Below are positions 37,413-64,000 of a stretch of DNA of 64,000 nt, in pieces. How positions within the stretch are numbered: the first letter of the stretch is position 1; each line of letters starts with the position of its first letter. The notes under the pieces were generated by a model. That model had not been told where the DNA came from. It worked only from the letters and a program-made list of their open reading frames with translations, and did not search any database. This stretch comes from Thermodesulfatator indicus DSM 15286 (GTDB lineage: Bacteria; Desulfobacterota; Thermodesulfobacteria; Thermodesulfobacteriales; Thermodesulfatatoraceae): positions 372,001 to 436,000 of the forward strand of contig NC_015681.1 of the NCBI RefSeq assembly GCF_000217795.1, in the 5' to 3' direction. The position numbers and the translations under genes were made by a program.

Positions 37413-37663
37413 TACCTCCAAACCTCTATAATTCTAATGTTCTGCTCTAGACAAACGAAAGAAAATAACAATTGTGAAATTACCACGGCTCCTAGATCAC
37501 CTAATGCTACCCCTCCCTTTTTCATACAAACTTGCTGGGATTAATAGTCTAATTTTTTAAATTGTCCTAATCTATTTATTTTTTTCATAAAAAAATTTTA
37601 TTTTTGGAATTTGTCCACCTTCCGAAAAGTATTCCAAGAATATTCTATTTTTGGGAGTCAAAA

Positions 37664-38275
37664 ATGAAAAAATTATTAAGTATCATTTTATTTGTTTTAG
37701 CTTTGCATATTAAGATAAGTTGGGCTGAGAATTTGGTTCTCTCTCAAGAGATAGCTTTTTGGCTGAACTATCGCTATTTAAAGTTAGAAAAAGAAACACT
37801 AAAAGTTATGATAGAGAATAAAGGTTTTGAAGGGGCTAGGCTATTTTTTAATGATCTAAATAGATGGTTAACCTTTGATATTAGAGAATATTTACACGAT
37901 TGGAATAGTAAAGTTGCTCTAGTATCCATAAACTATCGCAATCCTAGTCACAGTGCAGATAAAATTGCCCAAAAAATATTAATTTCTTATCAAAAAAAAC
38001 GGACAAATAACAAGAAAATAATGCCTGTGATCATAAGTAAAAATAATAAAACTACATATAGATATTTAATACCAATTTATGTCAAAAAAGATTGCTTAAA
38101 ATGCCATGGAAATAAACATGAAATTCCTTTTTCATATCAGACCAAAATAAAGAAATTTTATCCTAATGATAAAGCTATCAACTTAAAAGAAGGAGACATA
38201 ATAGGTGCTTTAAACATAGAGATCCCTATAGATACAATTGACTATTTATTGTCAGTTAGAAATTATTCTAAATAG
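37664..38275 (+). CDS. Exported monoheme DUF3365-type protein
   Basis: A 203-residue protein with a signal peptide (1-20, ending ISWA) and one c-type heme site, CLKCH (144-148), inside the pattern YRYLIPIYVKKDCLKCHG. This is the Tll0287-like DUF3365 sensor domain. The ATG at 37664, after GGGAG, gives a proper signal sequence. An in-frame upstream start would add 20 unrelated residues. The same domain occurs in the sensor kinase at 62187. Without a kinase part, it may be a soluble redox or gas sensor or an electron carrier. It stands alone and AT-rich. Confidence 0.82.
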   Translation: MKKLLSIILFVLALHIKISWAENLVLSQEIAFWLNYRYLKLEKETLKVMIENKGFEGARLFFNDLNRWLTFDIREYLHDWNSKVALVSINYRNPSHSADKIAQKILISYQKKRTNNKKIMPVIISKNNKTTYRYLIPIYVKKDCLKCHGNKHEIPFSYQTKIKKFYPNDKAINLKEGDIIGALNIEIPIDTIDYLLSVRNYSK

Positions 38276-39426: not shown

Positions 39427-41016
39427 TTATTTCTTAATAGTATGATTAGTAGATTTTTTATGGAAGGCCTTATCTATATGGCATGCAAGACACATTTCTG
39501 TAGTGGCCTTAAGCCTTAATTTATTATATTGGAGTGAACCTGTAGCTGCAGCCTTAAACTTAATAACTCCTTCTTGGTGTGGATTATGACAAGTAGCACA
39601 AATAATTCTTCCATTATATAATGGTATTTCTACACCTATTCTTTCTATGCTTGTATCTATAGCTTTTTTAATTTTTTTAGAAGGCTTAACCCCCGTATGG
39701 GTATAACCTGCAGGATGATTTTTTTCATAACCAGGATGACAACCGATACAACATTCATCAGGATCCTTCATAGCAAATTTTATATCTTTTAATCCAAAAT
39801 TATGCTCAGGATCAGGTACCGAACTATGACATAAAAGACATTTTTCTTTAATAACTTGCCCCTTTTTATCAATTTGATTTTCATGAGGGTTCATCCGTCT
39901 ATAAGTATTAGCTTCATGGCAAAGGAAACAAAATTGATATCGTGAAAGACCTGCTACCCTTAAAAATAGGGGATTTATTCGCTTTGCTTCTTTATAACGA
40001 AAACATTGAATACGAGCATTATGACAAGTCTCACAAGTTAGCAACCCATCCTGAAGAGGCAGAAATTTAGGAACTTTTATCTTTTTAGGTTTAATACCAA
40101 CCGGATGAATATCCGCTCTAGCAAACTGATCATTATGACATCTCTGGCACAACTGATTAAAATTTTTATTTTTTAAAGGAGCTCTATTAGGTGATGGCTG
40201 ATTAGAATGACAGTTTTTACAAAATAATTTCTTCCAGTGAGGATTAATACTACGAGACTCCCATGCTAATAATAAGTAAGTCTCTTTTATAGAATTCTCT
40301 TCTTTAGTCTTAAAATGATTTAGGTGGCAAGTAGTACAAATTGGCTTTTTATTAGAAAGATTCAAATTTAATTCTTTTGCCTTTTTTTGGATCTCTGGAT
40401 CTATAAATGGATTATATCCACGATCTATACTACAAATAACGTTCTGATGACAAGGAGTACAACTATACTTACCTAAAAAATCTTTAAGCCTTTGATTATT
40501 TTTATCTTTATCTATTGAAACTAAATGACAATATGTGCAATTATTTTTTTGTCTATCATGTACATTCTTTTTTTCTAAAAAATCTCCATGGCAAGCTACA
40601 CAGAGAACAGAATATAAATTTAAATTTGGAAGAATATCTCTATTATGTCTCAAAAAGTTCTTAGATCTAAGCAAATAATCTACGTTTTCTCTCAAATGTA
40701 TTTGATGACAAGTTGTACATGTAATTTTTCCATTATATAAAGGAAGTTTCATTAGAGAAAATATTATTGTACGATTTTTTACTTTTATTGCTGTAGGATG
40801 CTTCATGACTTGCTGATGGCATTTTTGACATATTTTAATTACATTACCACCATAAATTAGTTCTTTAGTCGGTTTACCATGATAATCTGATTTATGACAC
40901 GCTATACAATCTATCTTGTCATGTTTAGGTGTAAATATCTTTTGAGCTTTAGCAGCAGAAGCAAATATCAAATTAGCTACAAACAAAAGTATTATCTTTT
41001 TTATAAACATCTTCAT
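39427..41016 (-). CDS. 15-heme c-type cytochrome
   Basis: An exported 529-residue protein: signal peptide 1-24 (ending AKA), then fifteen CxxCH sites (CIACH, CQKCH, CTTCH, CVACH, CTYCH, CTPCH, CTTCH, CKNCH, CQRCH, CETCH, CFLCH, CLLCH, CIGCH, CATCH, CLACH) with many extra His as distal ligands. No membrane helix or enzymatic domain is visible. It is the last gene of the cytochrome operon and its ATG overlaps the stop of the 22-heme gene (ATGA). It is probably a periplasmic or surface electron conductor. The exact partner is unknown. Confidence 0.92.
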   Translation of the reverse strand: MKMFIKKIILLFVANLIFASAAKAQKIFTPKHDKIDCIACHKSDYHGKPTKELIYGGNVIKICQKCHQQVMKHPTAIKVKNRTIIFSLMKLPLYNGKITCTTCHQIHLRENVDYLLRSKNFLRHNRDILPNLNLYSVLCVACHGDFLEKKNVHDRQKNNCTYCHLVSIDKDKNNQRLKDFLGKYSCTPCHQNVICSIDRGYNPFIDPEIQKKAKELNLNLSNKKPICTTCHLNHFKTKEENSIKETYLLLAWESRSINPHWKKLFCKNCHSNQPSPNRAPLKNKNFNQLCQRCHNDQFARADIHPVGIKPKKIKVPKFLPLQDGLLTCETCHNARIQCFRYKEAKRINPLFLRVAGLSRYQFCFLCHEANTYRRMNPHENQIDKKGQVIKEKCLLCHSSVPDPEHNFGLKDIKFAMKDPDECCIGCHPGYEKNHPAGYTHTGVKPSKKIKKAIDTSIERIGVEIPLYNGRIICATCHNPHQEGVIKFKAAATGSLQYNKLRLKATTEMCLACHIDKAFHKKSTNHTIKK

Positions 41017-43616
41017 CTCTGAATTAAAGGAATTTCTCTACGATGTAACTCTTCTCGCATTTCAGCATCATGATAGTAGCGATACAAAAACAATGCACTT
41101 GGCCCATGGCAAATAGAACAGAAGTTTTCCATTAAATCTAGACGTTTTCTAAGAAAACTATTCATTACATTCCCTTCTACATTTTTCCAAGGAGCTTGTT
41201 CAGGATTATTATCATCCCAAATATGTGGATCGTGACAGGTAGAACAAGTAATAACTCCTTGAGGAGATCGCTTGCCATCTAAAGTAAATAGAGGAACATA
41301 TTTTGCTATCAAAAGTGACAGATATTTTTTATGATAACCAAAATATAGTTTAGTTGGATGAGAACCAACTGGTACAGTTTTGTCTGCTGCTGGGCCATCT
41401 TTACTATGACAGCCATAGCAAGTTTTTTCTATATAGTCTTGACCATTACCTAAAGGAGCTACCCAGAGATAAGGCTCATACAAAGCATTGTGAACACCAT
41501 GACAAGCGGTACACGGAGAAGCATCTTTTATAGATTTCCCTTGGAGATTAACATATTGAGGAGCTGTAACTCGCAAATCATGATCTGTACCGGTTACAAA
41601 GGCTTGATCATGATGGCAAGTTCCACATAATTTTGGATACTTTAAATTAGGTTTCCGGAGAAAACTGCTCATTTCAGTACCCTCAGTATTCTTTCCAGGA
41701 CCTTTTTTCTTCTTATTAGGTGCCCACTGGTGCGGATTATGACATGTACTACACTCCAAAAGATCTTTCTTATCTCCTACCTTATAAAATGGCAAATCTT
41801 TCGGAGGATTCTTCATCACTATCTTTATCGGATGAGTCTCCTCTCCTACAAGCTTCTTTGATGCTATCGCTTCCTTATTATGACAAGTTAAACAAAGATC
41901 TGATGGATAGGCCTCTTTAACATCTAGCTTGCGCGCCCATAAATATGGCCCTGTTGCATTATGCGGTACATGACAGGGACTACATAACCCCCCTGTCTTA
42001 ACATCTTCTCCTAAAATATTCTTCTCCTCAGGAGCTGTTACCCTTAAATCATGCTCCGTCTTCTCTACTAAAAGCTGATTTTGGTGACATGTTCCACAAA
42101 GAACAGGATTCAAACCAGCTGGCTTACGCAAAAAGCTAGTAAGGGGAGTACCCTCAGTATTCTTTCCAGGACCTTTTTTCTTCTTATTAGGTGCCCACTG
42201 GTGCGGATTATGACATGTACTACACTCCAAAAGATCTTTCTTATCTCCTACCTTATAAAATGGCAAATCTTTCGGAGGATTCTTCATCACTATCTTTATC
42301 GGATGAGTCTCCTCTCCTACAAGCTTCTTTGATGCTATCGCTTCCTTATTATGACAAGTTAAACAAAGATCTGATGGATAGGCCTCTTTAACATCTAGCT
42401 TGCGCGCCCATAAATATGGCCCTGTTGCATTATGCGGTACATGACAGGGACTACATAACCCCCCTGTCTTAACATCTTCTCCTAAAATATTCTTCTCCTC
42501 AGGAGCTGTTACCCTTAAATCATGCTCCGTCTTCTCTACTAGGAAGGCTTTAGGGTGACAGGAAGAACATAAAGGATTGTACTCAGCCACTAATGATTTT
42601 GGAAAAGATTTTTTTTGATGAATACCATGACAAGTAAGACACTGCAGAGTTCCTTTAGGACCTACAAAAAATTTTAAGCGAGATTTTTCAGGAAGTTTAA
42701 ACGTAATTTTTACAGGATGATTTTTTACAGGGGTTCCCTTTTCATTATGACAAATCAAACACAGTTGAGAATCAAAAATAGGAGCTGCCAGAAGCTTAAA
42801 AGGTTTTTGCGGAGCATCAGGTTGATGGGCTTTATGGCAAGAACTGCATTGCACCGTTCCCTTCTTACCAGCAAATAGTTTAGGAGCACCATGTTTTTCA
42901 TGAAATTTTACAAACAAAGGATGGTTTTTGCGCCGTGGACGTTGGGGCTCGGTTTCCCTGTATTTTTCTTCATGGCAGGCACTACACAAAGAAGAATCAC
43001 TAATAGGTAAAATAAAATTCTTTTCGGTTCCTCCATGAGCGGTATGGCAGCTTTCACAAATTATGTGTTTTGGATTAGTTACTGAAAGTACTGCCCCGGC
43101 TTCTACAAGTTTTTTAGGTATAGGACGGTCTCCCTTGTGCATAGGATGGTTACGATCTTTTTTGGTTTGTCTTACATGGCATAATTCACACATTATAGAA
43201 TCTTTATTAGAAATTCGTAAAAATATAACCCTTTCTATACTAGTATCTGTTGGTACTCCATGAGCAGAATGACAGGTACAACACACTATTTTACCATCTG
43301 GAGAAAGGGGAAAAATCTTTGGAATTCTAACTTTATCAGAAGGCTTAATATTGACTTTATGCCTATCTCTAAGCCAAACTTTTACCCGTGAATCCTCATT
43401 AGAACCATCGTGGCAGCTAAAACACATCATTTCATCACCAGCTACTTTTTCTACCTGCAAAGGATGCAAAGGAGTGCCACGGTGCTCGTAGTAAAAAGGT
43501 TCCATCCAACGAAAATGGCATATAGCACATTCTCTGGTGGGACTGGGCTTTAAAGTTACAGCCCAAACATTACCAGCCAAAAAATTTATTAATAGAAATA
43601 AAATCAAATAAAACAT
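41013..43616 (-). CDS. 22-heme c-type cytochrome with recently duplicated four-heme module
   Basis: An exported 867-residue protein with a signal peptide (1-19, ending VWA). I count 22 CxxCH sites: ten before the repeat, four in each of two repeats (CSPCH, CLTCH, CSTCH, CGTCH), then four more (CTACH, CYGCH, CSTCH, CSICH). The third site is CCTCH. The repeat period is 157 residues. Long spacers hold Lys, Pro and extra His. Such a heme string could span tens of nanometres. It follows the NHL gene with no gap and precedes the 15-heme gene. It resembles extracellular conductive cytochromes in general layout; I cannot assign a named family. Confidence 0.92.
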   Translation of the reverse strand: MFYLILFLLINFLAGNVWAVTLKPSPTRECAICHFRWMEPFYYEHRGTPLHPLQVEKVAGDEMMCFSCHDGSNEDSRVKVWLRDRHKVNIKPSDKVRIPKIFPLSPDGKIVCCTCHSAHGVPTDTSIERVIFLRISNKDSIMCELCHVRQTKKDRNHPMHKGDRPIPKKLVEAGAVLSVTNPKHIICESCHTAHGGTEKNFILPISDSSLCSACHEEKYRETEPQRPRRKNHPLFVKFHEKHGAPKLFAGKKGTVQCSSCHKAHQPDAPQKPFKLLAAPIFDSQLCLICHNEKGTPVKNHPVKITFKLPEKSRLKFFVGPKGTLQCLTCHGIHQKKSFPKSLVAEYNPLCSSCHPKAFLVEKTEHDLRVTAPEEKNILGEDVKTGGLCSPCHVPHNATGPYLWARKLDVKEAYPSDLCLTCHNKEAIASKKLVGEETHPIKIVMKNPPKDLPFYKVGDKKDLLECSTCHNPHQWAPNKKKKGPGKNTEGTPLTSFLRKPAGLNPVLCGTCHQNQLLVEKTEHDLRVTAPEEKNILGEDVKTGGLCSPCHVPHNATGPYLWARKLDVKEAYPSDLCLTCHNKEAIASKKLVGEETHPIKIVMKNPPKDLPFYKVGDKKDLLECSTCHNPHQWAPNKKKKGPGKNTEGTEMSSFLRKPNLKYPKLCGTCHHDQAFVTGTDHDLRVTAPQYVNLQGKSIKDASPCTACHGVHNALYEPYLWVAPLGNGQDYIEKTCYGCHSKDGPAADKTVPVGSHPTKLYFGYHKKYLSLLIAKYVPLFTLDGKRSPQGVITCSTCHDPHIWDDNNPEQAPWKNVEGNVMNSFLRKRLDLMENFCSICHGPSALFLYRYYHDAEMREELHRREIPLIQR
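41676..42070. repeat. 395-bp direct repeat, copy 1
   Basis: Reads identical to 42147-42541 by eye, at an offset of 471 bp (157 codons, in frame). It encodes part of the four-heme module of the 22-heme cytochrome. The two copies are separated by 76 bp that differ from the matching sequence beside copy 1. Full identity including synonymous sites means recent duplication or gene conversion. Confidence 0.9.
42147..42541. repeat. 395-bp direct repeat, copy 2
   Basis: Second copy of the repeat at 41676-42070. Identity stops abruptly on both sides: upstream at the AGTACCCTC boundary and downstream after TTCTCTACTA. Recombination between copies would remove or add exactly one four-heme module without breaking the frame. 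Confidence 0.9.
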
Positions 43617-44582
43617 CTAAGGTACTTCTTCTAAGACTAACACTCTATTTTTAATCATTTCTACCACATAAAGCCTTTTACCGTTGACAGCTAAACCAAC
43701 TGGAGTTTGAAAACGCCAGAGTTTTCCGTCAGGCCCTCCCACGGCTCCTAAGAAATTTCCTTGTTTGGTAAAAATTTGTATTACCCCTACATAACTGTCA
43801 GAAACAAAAACTTTCCCATCTTTAGAAACAGCAACCCCTTTCGGGCGAAAAAACTGACCCGGATCAATTCCCCATTCACCTATAAATCGCAAAAAATGGC
43901 CATTTTTATCAAGAACCTGTACCCTGGTATTAATTACTTCCACCACATAAATATTTCCTTGCTCGTCTGTATCCATTAAAAATGGATAGCGAAATTCTTC
44001 CGGCCCTCGGCCCATTTCTCCTGTAGCCCAAACAATTTTCCCTTTATAATCTAGGGCTAAGACTCTATGGTTATCATTATCTACGGCGATATATGTCTTT
44101 CCGTCTATACCAAAGCCTACATCAGTAGGGTCAGAAGGCCTCCCACCCTTTGGAGAAGGTACACTAATATAATGAGGCTTATTAATGCCTGGAGGGAACA
44201 GAGCTAATCTATGGTTTTGAGAATCAGCTACCAGAACCTCACCTTTAGCAGATACTGCTAAACCTAATGGCCATTTTAAGAGCTTGTCTCCTCCCAAAGT
44301 AAACAAAGGTTGGCCTAAAGCATTAAAAATGCGTACTAAGTTTTGAGTTCCATCTAGTACATATATCCATCCTTCAGGACCTATATCTACATCGCTAGGA
44401 AGCTTAAAACCCTCAATTTTGAATAACAGTTTATACTTGAATATTGGAAGAATACTTTTATCACTTTCCGATTGCGATAAACAATTTGTTGGCCAAAAAA
44501 CTATAAGGGTAAAAATAAATAGAAATATATATCGCCACCTGTTAAGTACTCTTTTTGCAGTTATTAACAGGTGGCGACACAT
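43617..44582 (-). CDS. NHL-repeat beta-propeller protein of the cytochrome operon
   Basis: A 321-residue protein with a basic N-terminus, one hydrophobic signal/anchor segment (about 18-35) and then repeated NHL units (LPSDVDIGPEGWIYVLD, PLGLAVSAKGEVLVADSQNHR, RPKGVAVSKDGKVFVSDS) forming a six-bladed propeller. NHL proteins often sit beside multiheme cytochromes in electron-transfer clusters, probably as scaffolds. It lies between the cytochrome b/c fusion gene and the 22-heme gene. Its first codons form a strong hairpin in the mRNA. No other in-frame start codon is close, so ATG at 44582 (after AGGAG) stands. Confidence 0.88.
   Translation of the reverse strand: MCRHLLITAKRVLNRWRYIFLFIFTLIVFWPTNCLSQSESDKSILPIFKYKLLFKIEGFKLPSDVDIGPEGWIYVLDGTQNLVRIFNALGQPLFTLGGDKLLKWPLGLAVSAKGEVLVADSQNHRLALFPPGINKPHYISVPSPKGGRPSDPTDVGFGIDGKTYIAVDNDNHRVLALDYKGKIVWATGEMGRGPEEFRYPFLMDTDEQGNIYVVEVINTRVQVLDKNGHFLRFIGEWGIDPGQFFRPKGVAVSKDGKVFVSDSYVGVIQIFTKQGNFLGAVGGPDGKLWRFQTPVGLAVNGKRLYVVEMIKNRVLVLEEVP
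44532..44577 (-). promoter_or_regulatory. 14-bp perfect inverted repeat at the start of the NHL gene
   Basis: Arms at 44532-44545 (TCGCCACCTGTTAA) and 44564-44577 are exact complements around an 18-base loop. In the mRNA the stem begins five bases after the A of the start codon and covers roughly codons 2-17. It could slow initiation on the NHL gene, attenuate the operon or melt with temperature. Function is inferred. Confidence 0.6.
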
Positions 44583-44592
44583 TATTTTACTC

Positions 44593-46194
44593 CTATTTAG
44601 TTTTTTCGGGTCGAAGTAGGCGCTGTTGGCGCATCAATTCAGGCTCAAACATAGTTGGAAGATAGAATTTCATGTAGCGATCAATCATTCTAGCTACTTC
44701 AGTTCTATAAAGGCTAGCTGCCCTTTCTGGTGGATAACCTACAGCAACAAAGTCTATATATCCATTCTTACGATGACATTCGTCACATTGGATAGGCTTA
44801 CGAGACAAGTGTCTATGTAATAAAGCTTTGGCACGAGCCTGCTCCTCTGGTGTTAATTTATCTTTTATTTTTAAGTATTCTTCAACAAATTCTTTATTCA
44901 TCTTATCCATGCGTATTTTCTTACCATCAGGTGTTGTAAGTACAGGAACAAGCATAGCTCCATATACACCATTATCCCCTTTAATTGTAGTAACCACTTC
45001 TCCAGTTTCATTGTTAAACCATACAAAATTAATTTTTCCTTTAACTTCATCTTTTCTAACATGACAAACTTCACAAGCAAAGAAATAAGTATGCATATTT
45101 AGTAGAGAACGCACCTCAGGAGACTTTGAGTGAGGATATATTCCATGACACTTTATACAAACTGGAGGATCTGACAATTTTAAATAAATGGTATTATCAA
45201 TATTATGAAAATGCCCCATCCATTTTCTAGCTTCGGATTCTTCTTTTATCTGCTTTTCAATAAGCAATGAAGCTTCTTGTATTTTAGAGGTAGCTTCTGT
45301 AGGAAAGTAAAGTAGTTTAGCTAGAAAGAGAAAAATACCTATAAAAAATATTATAGAAGGAATAGCTAGAAGCTTAAATAAATAATGAAAAAGTAATTTA
45401 ATTCCTTTTGGCCTCACATATTTATGATGCATTCTATGTAACTCTTCTAAATCCTCTTCAGACAATGGAATTAACTTACCTTCTTTAACAAGCCGCTCAT
45501 ACCATAATGGATGTTCCTCTAAAACCTCATAAACATGCATTTTTCCGTCTATCCAAATCCAACTCATTGGATATTTACCGGGCTTCCAATGTACTGCGTA
45601 AAAATGCCATACGATAATGGCCATAGTAGCTAAAGTAGCTTCCATTGTATGGATAAGATCAGACAATTCAATAGCAAAAAGGCTAAAATGAGTATTAAAC
45701 CATAATATTATTCCAGTAACAGAAACAATAATAGTACCAGCTACTAAAGCCAAATATTCCATTTTTTCCTTATAATCAAAACGATCAAACTTTGGGGGTT
45801 CAGGCCGTTTACCTAAAAAGTAAGCAATATTTTGAAAAATATCTATAGCATCTTTTTTGCGAGGTATCATATCTTTTATAAAGCGGCGACCATCAGGATG
45901 GAAAATACAATAAAGTATATGATAAAAACAAGTGATAATCATAGCTGCGCCGGCATAATGGTGAATAGCTGTACGATAATCATAAAAACTTGGACCTACT
46001 CTTTCTACAATTTTATTAACCCAATCTTCTGGAAGCTTTAGTAAAAAACCAGTTAACACTAGAAGAAAAAAGGTAATAACTGTCAACAAATGTTGCAACC
46101 TTTCGTGCCCATTAAGCCTTACTACATATTGATTTTTAGGATCAACATTTAATTCTTTTAGTTCTCTGTTTTCCATATCTCCATCCTCACTCAT
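44593..46194 (-). CDS. Cytochrome b fused to triheme c-type domain
   Basis: A 533-residue membrane protein. The N-terminal half is a formate-dehydrogenase-gamma-like cytochrome b with about four helices and paired histidines (HERLQHLL, AIHHYAG, FYHILYCIFH, IVWHFYAVHW). A fifth helix (about 270-292) leads to a periplasmic C-terminal domain with CIKCH, CEVCH and CDECH, and a terminal Arg-rich tail. It is the best candidate for the quinol-oxidising entry point of the operon, passing electrons from b hemes to c hemes within one chain. No molybdopterin or hydrogenase subunit accompanies it. Confidence 0.88.
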   Translation of the reverse strand: MSEDGDMENRELKELNVDPKNQYVVRLNGHERLQHLLTVITFFLLVLTGFLLKLPEDWVNKIVERVGPSFYDYRTAIHHYAGAAMIITCFYHILYCIFHPDGRRFIKDMIPRKKDAIDIFQNIAYFLGKRPEPPKFDRFDYKEKMEYLALVAGTIIVSVTGIILWFNTHFSLFAIELSDLIHTMEATLATMAIIVWHFYAVHWKPGKYPMSWIWIDGKMHVYEVLEEHPLWYERLVKEGKLIPLSEEDLEELHRMHHKYVRPKGIKLLFHYLFKLLAIPSIIFFIGIFLFLAKLLYFPTEATSKIQEASLLIEKQIKEESEARKWMGHFHNIDNTIYLKLSDPPVCIKCHGIYPHSKSPEVRSLLNMHTYFFACEVCHVRKDEVKGKINFVWFNNETGEVVTTIKGDNGVYGAMLVPVLTTPDGKKIRMDKMNKEFVEEYLKIKDKLTPEEQARAKALLHRHLSRKPIQCDECHRKNGYIDFVAVGYPPERAASLYRTEVARMIDRYMKFYLPTMFEPELMRQQRLLRPEKTK

Positions 46195-46208
46195 TTTTAA
46201 ATTTTATA

Positions 46209-47351
46209 TTAATGGTGATCTTTCCGTCTAATTGTACGATAAAAATCCATCATTTGATGAAGCATCATTCCACCTATAACAAAAGTGATTAGCAAAGTAT
46301 ATAAAACTTTTACCCAGTAGTATATTTTTCTCTGCATGAGTTCTTGAGGACTTAATTCTTCTTCTTTTACATCAGAAGCAGTAATTTTTGATTTAGCTTT
46401 TAGTTCTTTTAATGGATCTCCCGTTAACCCTATAGGTACTTTATGAATTTTTCCTGAAGCAAACTTTTCAGTAGCTCCAGGGTGACATTGGATTATTCCA
46501 TCAGGACTAGCACAAGTTAACGGTCTATTTGCGGGAGCTAGAGGTGAGTTAGGGTCTTTTACCGAAAGCATATTATGTATATCGCGTTTGAAACGTGGAG
46601 GAGCATGACAACTAATACAGTCCGGAGCATTAGGATCATTATAAAGAACCGCCTTCCAATGAAAAGTATCTTTATATCCAGACACAGGTTCTAAACCGTG
46701 ACGTGCCATCATATTAGCATCGGCGTGACAAGCAAGACACAAATCAACTAACTCTTTAGGGGTCTTAGCCCGATGCATACGATGAGCAAAGTGTTGATAA
46801 AATCTTTTGGTCCACTTTTCTTGGGGATGACATCCCAAACAGCGTCTCAGAACTTCTGGATTTATTCCTGGCTTTAAAGTTCTCAGGTCAACTACAGGCT
46901 TATAAATTTGATTTACATGGCACTCAGAACACTTAGGATAATCTTCAGGATATTTTTTGAGATTTGGAGGTTCCCCAGGCCAGTGGACACCTTCTTTTAA
47001 ACGGGCACAAATTGGTTCGTGGGAAAACTCTTTATTAGTAGAAGGTTCCTTTATATGGCACTTATTAGCACAGTTTACTTTTTTAACATTATTGTGAGGG
47101 ATTACATCTAAGCCTATATGACAATAGCGACAAAGTATTTCTCCATGAACTGATTGAGCATATAGTTTAGGGTTCACATAAAAAAGCCTCATCTTTCCTG
47201 TCTTTTGGTCAATATAAGCTAGACCAGGATACCTATGACAGATAGCACAATTCTCTTCGTCTGGAGATGTGTTAACCGAAGCTACTACTAGGGAAGAACT
47301 ACAAAGAAAAGCAAATAAAAAACACAAAATTAAAGGCGCTTTGGGTTTCAT
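46209..47351 (-). CDS. Membrane-anchored multiheme cytochrome c (six canonical plus two atypical sites)
   Basis: A 380-residue protein with a signal peptide (1-24, ending VVA) and a C-terminal helix (about 345-368) that anchors it to the inner membrane. Canonical sites are CAICH, CRYCH, CSECH, CLGCH, CLACH and CISCH. Two others are odd: CANKCH (three residues between the cysteines) and CASPDGIIQCH (eight residues). The ATG at 47351 follows AAAGGAG; a longer in-frame start is less likely. It is the first gene of the cytochrome operon, 14 bp upstream of the cytochrome b/c gene, and probably forms a complex with it. Confidence 0.9.
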   Translation of the reverse strand: MKPKAPLILCFLFAFLCSSSLVVASVNTSPDEENCAICHRYPGLAYIDQKTGKMRLFYVNPKLYAQSVHGEILCRYCHIGLDVIPHNNVKKVNCANKCHIKEPSTNKEFSHEPICARLKEGVHWPGEPPNLKKYPEDYPKCSECHVNQIYKPVVDLRTLKPGINPEVLRRCLGCHPQEKWTKRFYQHFAHRMHRAKTPKELVDLCLACHADANMMARHGLEPVSGYKDTFHWKAVLYNDPNAPDCISCHAPPRFKRDIHNMLSVKDPNSPLAPANRPLTCASPDGIIQCHPGATEKFASGKIHKVPIGLTGDPLKELKAKSKITASDVKEEELSPQELMQRKIYYWVKVLYTLLITFVIGGMMLHQMMDFYRTIRRKDHH

Positions 47352-47453
47352 TTTCTTGCTCCTTTTATAAATTTTTCTTAAAAAATAATCTTTAAAACCT
47401 GAAATTATCAAAATTAATAATTAAAATCACTTAAAATCTTGATCGTTAGAGAG

Positions 47454-47481
47454 TGTATATAAAAGCGGATCTCTTTGTCAA
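47454..47481 (-). promoter_or_regulatory. Promoter of the cytochrome operon
   Basis: On the reverse strand, a perfect TTGACA (47476-47481) lies 16 bp before TATACA (47454-47459), about 100 bp upstream of the first cytochrome gene. This leaves a long AT-rich leader that may carry control elements I cannot identify. It is the only good promoter seen before the five-gene unit. Confidence 0.65.
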
Positions 47482-47698: not shown

Positions 47699-48844
47699 TT
47701 AACTCGTTTTCCTTTGAGGAGGGCTGTGTTTGGGGAGCTTAACAATAAACTCACTGCCTTTGCCTATACTACTTTCTACTTTTATTTTCCCTTTATGGGC
47801 CTGGATAACATGTTTTACAATAGCTAGCCCCAGACCTGTTCCTGCTTCTTTAACATCTTTACCACGATAAAAGCGTTCAAAAATTCGTTCCTTTTCATAG
47901 TCTTTTATACCAGGACCTTCGTCTTTTATACTCACTTGCCATTCTTTTTCTTTTTCTTCCAAAACAATCCATATATTCTTACCAGAAGGGCTAAACTTTA
48001 TAGCATTATCAAGCAAATTAATAAAAGCCCGCAAAAGGTCGTCAAAACTACCCCACACAGGAACAGATTGTTCAGGAAATTTCCAATGTACAATTATTTT
48101 TTTATTTTGAGCCTTTATAGAAATCGTTTCTATAGCCGTTTGGATAACTTCTTTTAAATCAACTACTTCAAAGTCTTCTTCTGGAATGCCCTGCAACTCA
48201 AGCCTAGACAAAACTTGGAGCTCCTTTAAAAGACGAGAAAGTCTCTTGGTATTTTTTATTATAATGCTCACATCCTGACGCATATCTCCAGGTACTTCTT
48301 CTAACAAGGCTTCAGCATAACCTTCGATAGCCGTCAGAGGCGTACGAAATTCGTGAGCTAGATGAGCTACAAAATCTCGTCTTATATGAGAAAGTTTTCT
48401 AAAAGGTGTTAAATCCAAGAAAACCAAAGCTCTCAAAGCATCGTCTATGGCCAAGGTAGTAATTTTAAAAACTCGATAAGCTGGCCAAAAGAGTTCTTTT
48501 TCAAAAGAACGCCCTTCTCCTTTTTCAATGGCCTGCTGAATGTTTGGATCTCTTAAAATGTCAAAAAGATTGGGAAGCTCATTTGGACGTCCAACACCTA
48601 AAAAACTATAAGCTTTGGGATTTAAAAAAACGATAGAACCATCTTTTTTACAAATGACTACTCCTTCTTCAAGGATATCAAAAATTTTTGGCCAGGAAAT
48701 TTCTCTTTTGGACTCAGGCTTACTTGATTTTGGGGGAGGAGTTTCTTTAGAAATAGGCCTTTTGCGCCATTTTATTACAAAATATATCCAGCTGGCTATT
48801 AAAACCAGTGATAGGAATAGATTAATCTTTAAACCGGTATCCAA
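47699..48844 (-). CDS. PhoR-like sensor histidine kinase
   Basis: A 381-residue membrane kinase: one helix at the N-terminus (about 7-24), a PAS-type domain (about 50-150, ILEEGVVICKKDGSIVFLN), HisKA with the phosphorylated His in LAHEFRTPLTAIEGY, and a HATPase domain with NLLDNAIKFSP, DEGPGI and GTGLGLAIV. The architecture is that of PhoR but with one helix and no periplasmic sensor, so the signal is probably cytoplasmic. It overlaps its regulator gene by 23 bp. No phosphate transport genes are nearby, and the next unit downstream is the cytochrome operon. Confidence 0.9.
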   Translation of the reverse strand: MDTGLKINLFLSLVLIASWIYFVIKWRKRPISKETPPPKSSKPESKREISWPKIFDILEEGVVICKKDGSIVFLNPKAYSFLGVGRPNELPNLFDILRDPNIQQAIEKGEGRSFEKELFWPAYRVFKITTLAIDDALRALVFLDLTPFRKLSHIRRDFVAHLAHEFRTPLTAIEGYAEALLEEVPGDMRQDVSIIIKNTKRLSRLLKELQVLSRLELQGIPEEDFEVVDLKEVIQTAIETISIKAQNKKIIVHWKFPEQSVPVWGSFDDLLRAFINLLDNAIKFSPSGKNIWIVLEEKEKEWQVSIKDEGPGIKDYEKERIFERFYRGKDVKEAGTGLGLAIVKHVIQAHKGKIKVESSIGKGSEFIVKLPKHSPPQRKTS

Positions 48845-49496
48845 TGCCCCAGACAGTTTCTATCATTTCAGCACAAGGGCCAAGTTTTTTGCGAAGGCGT
48901 CTCACGTGAGTATCAACCGTACGCGCATATCCTTCAAAAGTATAGCCCCATACTTTTTCAAGAAGTATCTCTCGAGTGAGTACTTTGCCCTTAGCTTTGG
49001 CCAAAGCTAATAATAAATTAAATTCAGTTCTAGTGAGTTTTATTTCTTCTTTGTCTATTTTTACTTTCATAGAATTCGGATCTATATAAAGAGGCCCTAT
49101 AGTAATAGCGGCCGAGGGAGCTTCTGTTTGTTTAACCCTTTTAAGAATGGCCTTAACCCTTAAAGACAACTCTTTGGGACTAAAAGGTTTCACAATATAG
49201 TCGTCTGCTCCCATCTCAAAACCAAGAATGCGATCTATCTCTTCACCTTTGGCTGTTAATATCATAACGGGAATTTCTGTCTTCTCCTGAAAACGAAGGT
49301 ACTTACAGAGTTCAAGACCATTTCCATCAGGAAGCATCAGGTCAAGGATTACTAGTTCTGGAATTTCTTTATCGATTAATTCTTGACCTTCGGCAAGGGA
49401 AGAGGCAATACGGGTTTTGAACCCTTCTTTTTCTAAAGTGCGAGCTACTAATCTTGCAATATCTTGTTCGTCTTCTACGATTAGTATATACGACAT
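48822..49496 (-). CDS. OmpR/PhoB-family response regulator
   Basis: A 224-residue transcription factor: receiver with acidic pair in VEDEQD, phosphoacceptor in LVILDLMLPDGNG and Lys in IVKPFSPKEL, then an OmpR winged helix (about 125-224) with LTRTEFNLLLALAKAKGKVLTREILLEKVWGY and TVDTHVRRLRKKLG. It pairs with the kinase gene that overlaps its end. Targets are unknown; the adjacent cytochrome operon is a candidate. Confidence 0.93.
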   Translation of the reverse strand: MSYILIVEDEQDIARLVARTLEKEGFKTRIASSLAEGQELIDKEIPELVILDLMLPDGNGLELCKYLRFQEKTEIPVMILTAKGEEIDRILGFEMGADDYIVKPFSPKELSLRVKAILKRVKQTEAPSAAITIGPLYIDPNSMKVKIDKEEIKLTRTEFNLLLALAKAKGKVLTREILLEKVWGYTFEGYARTVDTHVRRLRKKLGPCAEMIETVWGIGYRFKD

Positions 49497-62186: not shown

Positions 62187-64000
62187 ATGTTAAAACTTTT
62201 GCGCCAAAGTTGGCTGGTTATTTTTTTATTACCCTTAGCAGCTTCTATTTGCCTCTTTTATTATTCTTATCAGCGCTCTCAAATTATTGAGCAGGCCGAT
62301 AAAGAAACGGAAATTTTTATTGTTACCGCTGAAGCTACCAGACTTTACGTTAAAGAAGTCCTGCGTCCCAAAATGTATAAAATTTTTTCTGACGAGCGTT
62401 TTATTCCTGAAGCCATGTCCACTTCCCATGTAGGCCGAGAAATAATGAAGCGCATAGGTAAATATTTTCCTTACATGGAATACAAAAGAGCTGCCTTAAA
62501 TCCTCGTAATCCCATAAACAAAGCAGATATCTTGGAAATAAAAATAATTGACGAATTCAAACATTCAAACGTGAAAGAAATAACCAAATTACTTGACCGT
62601 AAAGGAACTATATATTTTGGCAGGTTTAGACCAATTTATGCTGAAAAATCTTGTCTAAAATGCCACGGAGACCCCCGCAAAGCTCCTCGTGAATTAATAA
62701 AAATTTACGGGAACACTGGAGGTTATTACTATAAGCCTGGTCAAATTGTAGCTATAGATGCCGTCTATATCCCTATAGGCCCAGCCCTAGTTACACTTAA
62801 AAAACAAGTGCTTTCTAGTTTTCTTTTCGGTGTAGGACTTCTAATTTTTCTGGTTTTCTCTGTAAGACTCCTTCTTCAGTATGAATTTTTGCCCAGTTTA
62901 AGAAAACTTTCTGTTTACTTAAGTAGTATTATCCATACAGAAAAATTTAAAAATCTTTCTGTTGACGATAACGTTGAACGTATCACCTCTTCTCTTGAAG
63001 ACCTCGCCCTAGAAGTAAAAAGAATACATACCGAACTCCAAAAATCAGAACAAAAATATCGCTCGCTTTTTGAATCATCACAAGATGCCATTTTAATGTG
63101 GAACAGAGAAAACAAACTGGTAGATATAAATCCTGCAGGACTCAAATTTTTTGGATTCATTAGTAAGGAAGAAGCTCTCGGTATCGAAACCATTGAACAA
63201 CTTTTCTGGGACCACCAAGATGCCATTGCCTTTATAAGTAAATTAGTTGAAAAAAGCCAGATAAAGGATTGGGAAACCATAGTAGTAAATCGTGAGGGAA
63301 AACGTTTTCAGGTTTTAGTTACCGCTAGTAAAGCCATCGAAGTAAACGGCTTGACCCTTTACGTTGGCCTTTTTCGCGATATAACCGAAAAGAAACTTAT
63401 AGAAAAACATATTATCACCACGGAAAAATTAGCCGCTGTGGGGCAACTAGCTGCGGGGCTAGCTCACGAAATAAACAACTCCTTAAGTGTAATCAAGTGT
63501 TATGCCAATCTTTTAGCTAAAACCAACTCAAAAGACGAACAGGCATTAAAAGACCTAGAAACAATCAAAAAGCACGTCAAAATGTGTCAAGATATCTTGC
63601 AAAACCTGCTTAACTTTTCTCGGCCAACTGAGTATAAAAAAGTCAAAGCCAACATAAATGACATAATCAAAGAAGTAGCTGAACTCTTTGCCACAAGACT
63701 CCAAAAAAGAAAAATAAATCTTTATCTAGATTTATCTCCTGAGCTTCCAGCGCTTTGGGTTGATTGGGATAAAATAAAACAGGTCTTTATGAATATGTTG
63801 CTAAACGCCTTACAAGCTATCGAACAAAAAGGCGAAATCAAAGTTAGCACACATTTTGACAAAGTTAAAAATCGGGTCATTATTAAAATTTCAGATACAG
63901 GCTGTGGTATTCCTGAAACAATAATAGATAAAATATTTGATCCGTTTTTTACCACCAAAGCTCCCGGAGAGGGAACAGGGCTTGGTCTTTCCGTAAGTTA
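62187..64000 (+). CDS. Sensor histidine kinase with periplasmic DUF3365 heme domain (3' end outside window)
   Basis: The visible 604 codons encode a membrane kinase: helix 1 (about 8-28), a periplasmic DUF3365 domain with one heme site CLKCH (156-160), helix 2 (about 208-232), a linker, PAS (about 288-400), HisKA with H427 ([12 protein letters not shown]), and HATPase ([28 protein letters not shown]). The end is cut at the edge, so a receiver domain could follow. Covalent heme suggests redox or gas sensing. The ATG at 62187 has a poor ribosome site; I saw no better start. It follows the ATPase gene after 117 bp. Confidence 0.88.

Follow-up and report, generated by a model that had tools for sequence, protein, structure and literature searches.

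Where do electrons enter and leave a chain of multiheme cytochromes when the genes that encode it include no obvious terminal enzyme? This question is raised by a five-gene cluster in the window, the 64,000-nucleotide stretch of the Thermodesulfatator indicus genome analyzed here, which lies within a single 2,322,224-bp contig. Open reading frame calls revealed five intact, tightly packed genes on the minus strand, running from 47351 down to 39427 and encoding, in order of transcription, an anchored cytochrome (A), a cytochrome b fused to a triheme domain (B-T), an NHL propeller, a 22-heme protein, and a 15-heme protein. The intergenic spacings, in the same order, are 14, 10, 0, and −4 bp, and the five genes are therefore likely to form one operon. 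An earlier note on this DNA had placed them under one promoter. A promoter-like site is indeed found upstream of A (47481–47452, minus strand), matching the consensus at 10 of 12 positions, but this match is weak evidence in a region that holds 52 such matches as compared with 39.6 ± 6.6 in shuffled sequences (∼1.9 S.D. higher), and the single promoter is a candidate.

The five proteins contain 6, 3, 0, 22, and 15 CxxCH motifs, respectively, with the 3–22 observed in the cytochromes far exceeding the means of 0.006–0.15 in shuffled copies of the proteins. Counting CxxCH motifs only, with an overlapping CCIGCH in the 15-heme protein taken as one site, the cluster has 46 potential c-type heme sites, which become 47 with a CxxxCH motif and 48 with a CX8CH motif, and two b hemes come on top of these 48. 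The ∼46–48 c-type sites plus a cytochrome b that had been claimed previously are thus borne out, the cytochrome b by a match to PF01292.

B-T (44593–46194, minus strand) is composed of a cytochrome b domain (B, approximately residues 20–240) and a periplasmic domain with three CxxCH motifs (T, approximately residues 320–533). B matches PF01292 with 52.6 bits (cut-off 30.1), and its sole sequence match in the PDB is FdnI, chain C of Escherichia coli formate dehydrogenase N (PDB code 1KQF). His35, His78, His182, and His197 of B align with His18, His57, His155, and His169 of FdnI, the heme-b ligands of that protein; all four are kept, and they are invariant in the homologue alignment (A1). The same FdnI chain is the top Foldseek match of the B-T model, which is weak overall. 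With a mean pLDDT of 56 for the AlphaFold models of both A and B-T, heme geometry cannot be read from either, and only the match of B to FdnI is usable. B resembles FdnI in its fold and in its four heme-b ligands, and differs from it in having a periplasmic triheme extension in place of a dehydrogenase partner and in its low identity (24%, Foldseek).

A (46209–47351, minus strand) is a secreted cytochrome in a CbcA-like position, with a C-terminal membrane helix at residues 335–377; its start was set at 47351 (ATG), with a TTG at 47411 as another possibility. It carries six CxxCH motifs, one CxxxCH, and one CX8CH, the last of which forms the eighth site (Cys280, Cys289, and His290; 46482–46514, minus strand) and is 100% conserved in 56 sequences. 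Conservation across the 56 homologues is at least 98% for all eight motif sites and for exactly eight additional histidines (residues 69, 86, 111, 123, 187, 231, 259, and 303), an arrangement that fits eight bis-His hemes, and A is thus probably an octaheme cytochrome. The spacing of the eighth site varies among relatives while its ligands are kept, being CX8CH in 31 of 58, CX4CH in 14, and CX2CH in 7. A heme would accordingly be attached at CX8CH in the present protein, and how such a heme is attached poses a separate question.

The remaining three proteins are all secreted and encoded on the minus strand. The NHL protein (43617–44582) is a propeller of the six-bladed type (PF01436, 74.8 bits), and the 22-heme (41013–43616) and 15-heme (39427–41016) cytochromes both match PF09699 and PF14522 and have plain signal peptides. 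PDB sequence searches with A and with the 22- and 15-heme proteins returned nothing or trivial matches only. Within the 22-heme gene lies an exact tandem repeat (41676–42541, minus strand), in which 395 bp at 42147–42541 are identical to those at 41676–42070 with a period of 471 bp. The repeat arose very recently, by duplication or gene conversion, with a gain of approximately four hemes; the orthologue in the relative G008 has 18 hemes.

The combination of A and B recalls CbcBA (Cbc5), a menaquinol:cytochrome c oxidoreductase of Geobacter sulfurreducens that has also been proposed for Seep-SRB2, and in which CbcA is reported to have 7 hemes (PMC7726332, PMC12307469, PMC10553843). As in CbcBA, a PF01292 cytochrome b is paired with an adjacent multiheme c subunit bound to the membrane (PMC7726332, PMC10553843). 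Unlike CbcBA, A has eight sites, including CX8CH, the triheme domain T is fused to B, and genes for the NHL, 22-heme, and 15-heme proteins are part of the operon. A is anchored, multiheme, and adjacent to B, but where ∼7 hemes and a PF09699 domain are expected of the c subunit, it has eight sites and no match to PF09699 in a Pfam scan. Judged by this arrangement, the module is best read as a variant of the CbcBA kind. The CbcBA-like core had been missed in the earlier note, together with the recurrence of the module and the conduit loci linked to it.

Desulfobacterota and Nitrospirota both contain full-length homologues of B-T (∼50–81% identity) along with forms that are more distant or split, and the module itself was found in Desulfobulbales, Desulfobacterales, and Nitrospirota. 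It consists of A, B, T (fused here, often a separate gene), an NHL protein, and an 18–24-heme protein, often with a 10–16-heme protein too, with A upstream of B-T and the NHL and large cytochrome genes downstream. Between relatives the heme number of the large protein ranges from 16 to 38, with a 38-heme protein in the large-cytochrome position in one of them. An NHL gene was found no more than 6.5 kb downstream of 44 of the 63 T-type B genes, as compared with 1 of the 39 other B genes. Given this recurrent gene order and the fusion of B to T, which in other relatives are separate neighboring genes, A, B, and T would form one complex. Plain A-B pairs without T, across which A is homologous, are found in Armatimonadota, Zixiibacteriota, Bacillota, and others.

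A tree built from 106 B domains groups the B domain encoded in the window with Desulfobulbales-type rows in a set of 19 rows (support 99/96). T-type B genes are intermixed on this tree with A-B pairs that lack T and come from other phyla, and the fused B-T state needs six changes. Five Nitrospirota loci (L109, L110, L112, L135, and L160) each contain two tandem copies of A-B-T-NHL-large cytochrome, and the B genes of these copies sit in different parts of the tree. Within the family, 3 of 10 genomes carry the module, each at a different place, and close congeners are without it, which suggests gain, loss, or movement of the module. A description of the module was not found in the open-access literature, subscription papers being outside the scope of the search. 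Relatives include the named isolates Desulforhopalus sp. IMCC35007 and Desulfosediminicola flagellatus, which makes the module testable in culture.

The earlier statement that the chain has no obvious end holds for the five genes, among which a Pfam scan found no porin, but not of the genome, which contains a described large-cytochrome locus 1.4 Mb from the module, at 1.856–1.875 Mb. This locus encodes an NHL protein, 5- and 6-heme proteins, a 649-aa protein (called barrel-like from its sequence pattern alone, with no Pfam match), two small lipoprotein-like proteins, a PPIase, 26- and 16-heme proteins, and propellers; the 26-heme, 16-heme, PPIase, and six-bladed propeller genes all lie at 1.864–1.870 Mb. 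It matches the core operon that has been described in SEEP-SRB1, in HotSeep-1, and in related Thermodesulfobacteriales (PMC5539420), as well as the IS5 cytochrome island (PMC8322314), and operons of this kind have been proposed to serve extracellular electron transfer (PMC5539420, PMC8322314). The four-gene SEEP-SRB1/HotSeep-1 operon and the IS5 island share with the module large multiheme cytochromes and β-propellers, and in several relatives they are adjacent to it. The SEEP-SRB1/HotSeep-1 operon, with its PPIase, 26-heme, and 16-heme genes, lacks a cytochrome b. The module genes lie outside it, and that operon set is absent from them.

In at least four lineages the module is syntenic with large-cytochrome loci. 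In the congener G004, orthologues of the 26-heme locus (42–77% identity) start ∼0.5 kb upstream of A on one contig, and the 26-heme gene lies at 16.2 kb. In the Desulfobulbales-type genome G366 a divergent copy of the module directly adjoins a complete 26-heme-type locus, and in L134/G056 and L112 the 26- and 16-heme genes are near A-B. The two are linked in 3 of the 7 sampled genomes that have both (P ∼2 × 10⁻⁴ for random placement, uncorrected for relatedness), and they co-occur among ∼395 genomes with P = 0.007 (relatedness uncorrected, with the list of T-type genomes read by eye). L121 and L124 have conduits of the MtrAB porin-cytochrome type (GSU2203/GSU2204 families) immediately adjacent to homologous modules: each encodes an MtrB/PioB-type barrel (PF11854 above cut-off in both) and a decaheme protein next to the module, and the decaheme protein of L121 scores above the GSU2203-family cut-off (347 versus 325 bits). 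NHL, 4–5-heme, and ∼700-aa barrel-like proteins are encoded nearby in L088, L089, L105, and L119. Unlike the MtrAB-type conduits, the window operon has neither porin nor MtrA. In its own genome the GSU2203-family MtrA gave sub-cut-off matches only, and a weak search, run with no positive control, found no homologue of the ∼700-aa barrel (A3). The congeners G005 and G007 have the conduit locus and not the module, and the module is thus dispensable for that locus there.

Taken together, these data suggest that the five genes probably supply the half of an extracellular electron-transfer chain that lies in the inner membrane and periplasm. B, whose fold and ligands are seen, would exchange electrons with menaquinone in the cytoplasmic membrane via its two b hemes. 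The fixed gene order and the repeated B-T fusion point to the fused T and the anchored A as a relay on the periplasmic face, and the NHL propeller is probably a scaffold or assembly factor for the cytochromes. Electrons would then cross the periplasm by way of the secreted 22- and 15-heme proteins to an outer-membrane or extracellular cytochrome system, here most likely that of the 26-heme/16-heme/PPIase/propeller locus, as suggested by the linkage in relatives. Export or import of electrons across the envelope, as put forward in the earlier note, accordingly gains from the pairing of a quinone-reactive cytochrome b with multiheme partners and from the fact that, in several lineages, homologous modules are found next to outer-membrane or large-cytochrome loci; the interspecies or mineral partners named there are possible ones. 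A narrower proposal, that A, B-T, and the NHL, 22-heme, and 15-heme proteins together make up a single dedicated wire across the periplasm from the menaquinone pool to the 26-heme extracellular system, anchored by an octaheme protein with an unusual CX8CH heme, is possible but on balance doubtful. If true, it would make the module an unrecognized inner-membrane partner of the 26-heme system in several phyla.

Multiheme proteins can also be enzymes, and one large cytochrome could reduce a periplasmic substrate such as a sulfur or nitrogen oxyanion, in which case A-B-T would serve it as a quinol dehydrogenase. T is weakly and partially similar to the octaheme tetrathionate reductase family (26.4 bits, cut-off 375), and A to the NrfB model (22 bits, cut-off 166.6). 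However, none of the four cytochromes matched the curated reductase models in NCBIfam (Otr, Nrf, and Hmc), all remaining far below cut-off. Moreover, the free drift in heme number and the exact repeat inside the 22-heme gene suit a wire better than an active site, and every motif of A has a conserved candidate distal histidine, leaving no obvious open site. A soluble-acceptor reductase is consequently regarded as distinctly unlikely.

It is also unlikely, in our judgment, that the module acts as a periplasmic charge buffer, tying menaquinone to a large periplasmic heme pool with no outside link, for instance to pass electrons from a periplasmic hydrogenase to sulfate reduction. The five genes do lack a porin or lipoprotein gene, the signal peptides of the 22- and 15-heme proteins would agree with such a role, and the 26-heme locus is far from the module in its own genome; against this, modules in other lineages are repeatedly found physically linked to conduit-type loci. 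The patchy distribution in the family and the differing places in the three carriers could finally mark silent or decaying acquired cargo with no present function, but all frames are intact, B-T is 79–81% identical to its counterparts in one congener and another genus, and the heme sites of A are kept, making this reading highly improbable.

The CbcBA-type complex of Geobacter works outward near −0.2 V (PMC12307469). For CbcBA in Seep-SRB2 it has been proposed that electrons passed into menaquinone drive sulfate reduction (PMC10553843). The pathway encoded here is probably reversible. The genome has dsrA and dsrB, as claimed earlier and with both above the NCBIfam cut-offs, as well as DsrK and DsrJ of DsrMKJOP, so that electrons entering menaquinone could drive sulfate reduction. 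In this dsrAB-bearing genome inward flow, from an external donor through menaquinone to DsrMKJOP, is slightly favored over outward respiration. The route from large extracellular cytochromes to the quinone pool in sulfate reducers differs by clade and is partly unsettled (PMC10553843), and the module offers a genetically compact candidate for the missing inner-membrane link of extracellular electron exchange.

Several neighboring genes were also noted. A PhoR/PhoB-like pair (47699–49496) lies directly upstream of the module; it was considered as a dedicated regulator and rejected, because the six relatives tested all have the pair, including four without the module, and it stands apart from the module in G004 and G008. 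A secreted carbonic anhydrase (PF00484; 38478–39236) is encoded on the same strand as the module, 190 bp downstream of the 15-heme gene, and its gene is away from the module in G008. Elsewhere in the genome, at ∼2.304–2.313 Mb (L185, 4026–12811), genes for a molybdopterin oxidoreductase, a small tetraheme protein, an NrfH-sized tetraheme protein, and an octaheme protein possibly constitute a nitrate-to-ammonia pathway. Two further window proteins (37604–38275 and 62187–64000), the second of which is a histidine kinase, each combine a Tll0287-like domain with one CxxCH motif and are possible c-type heme sensors.
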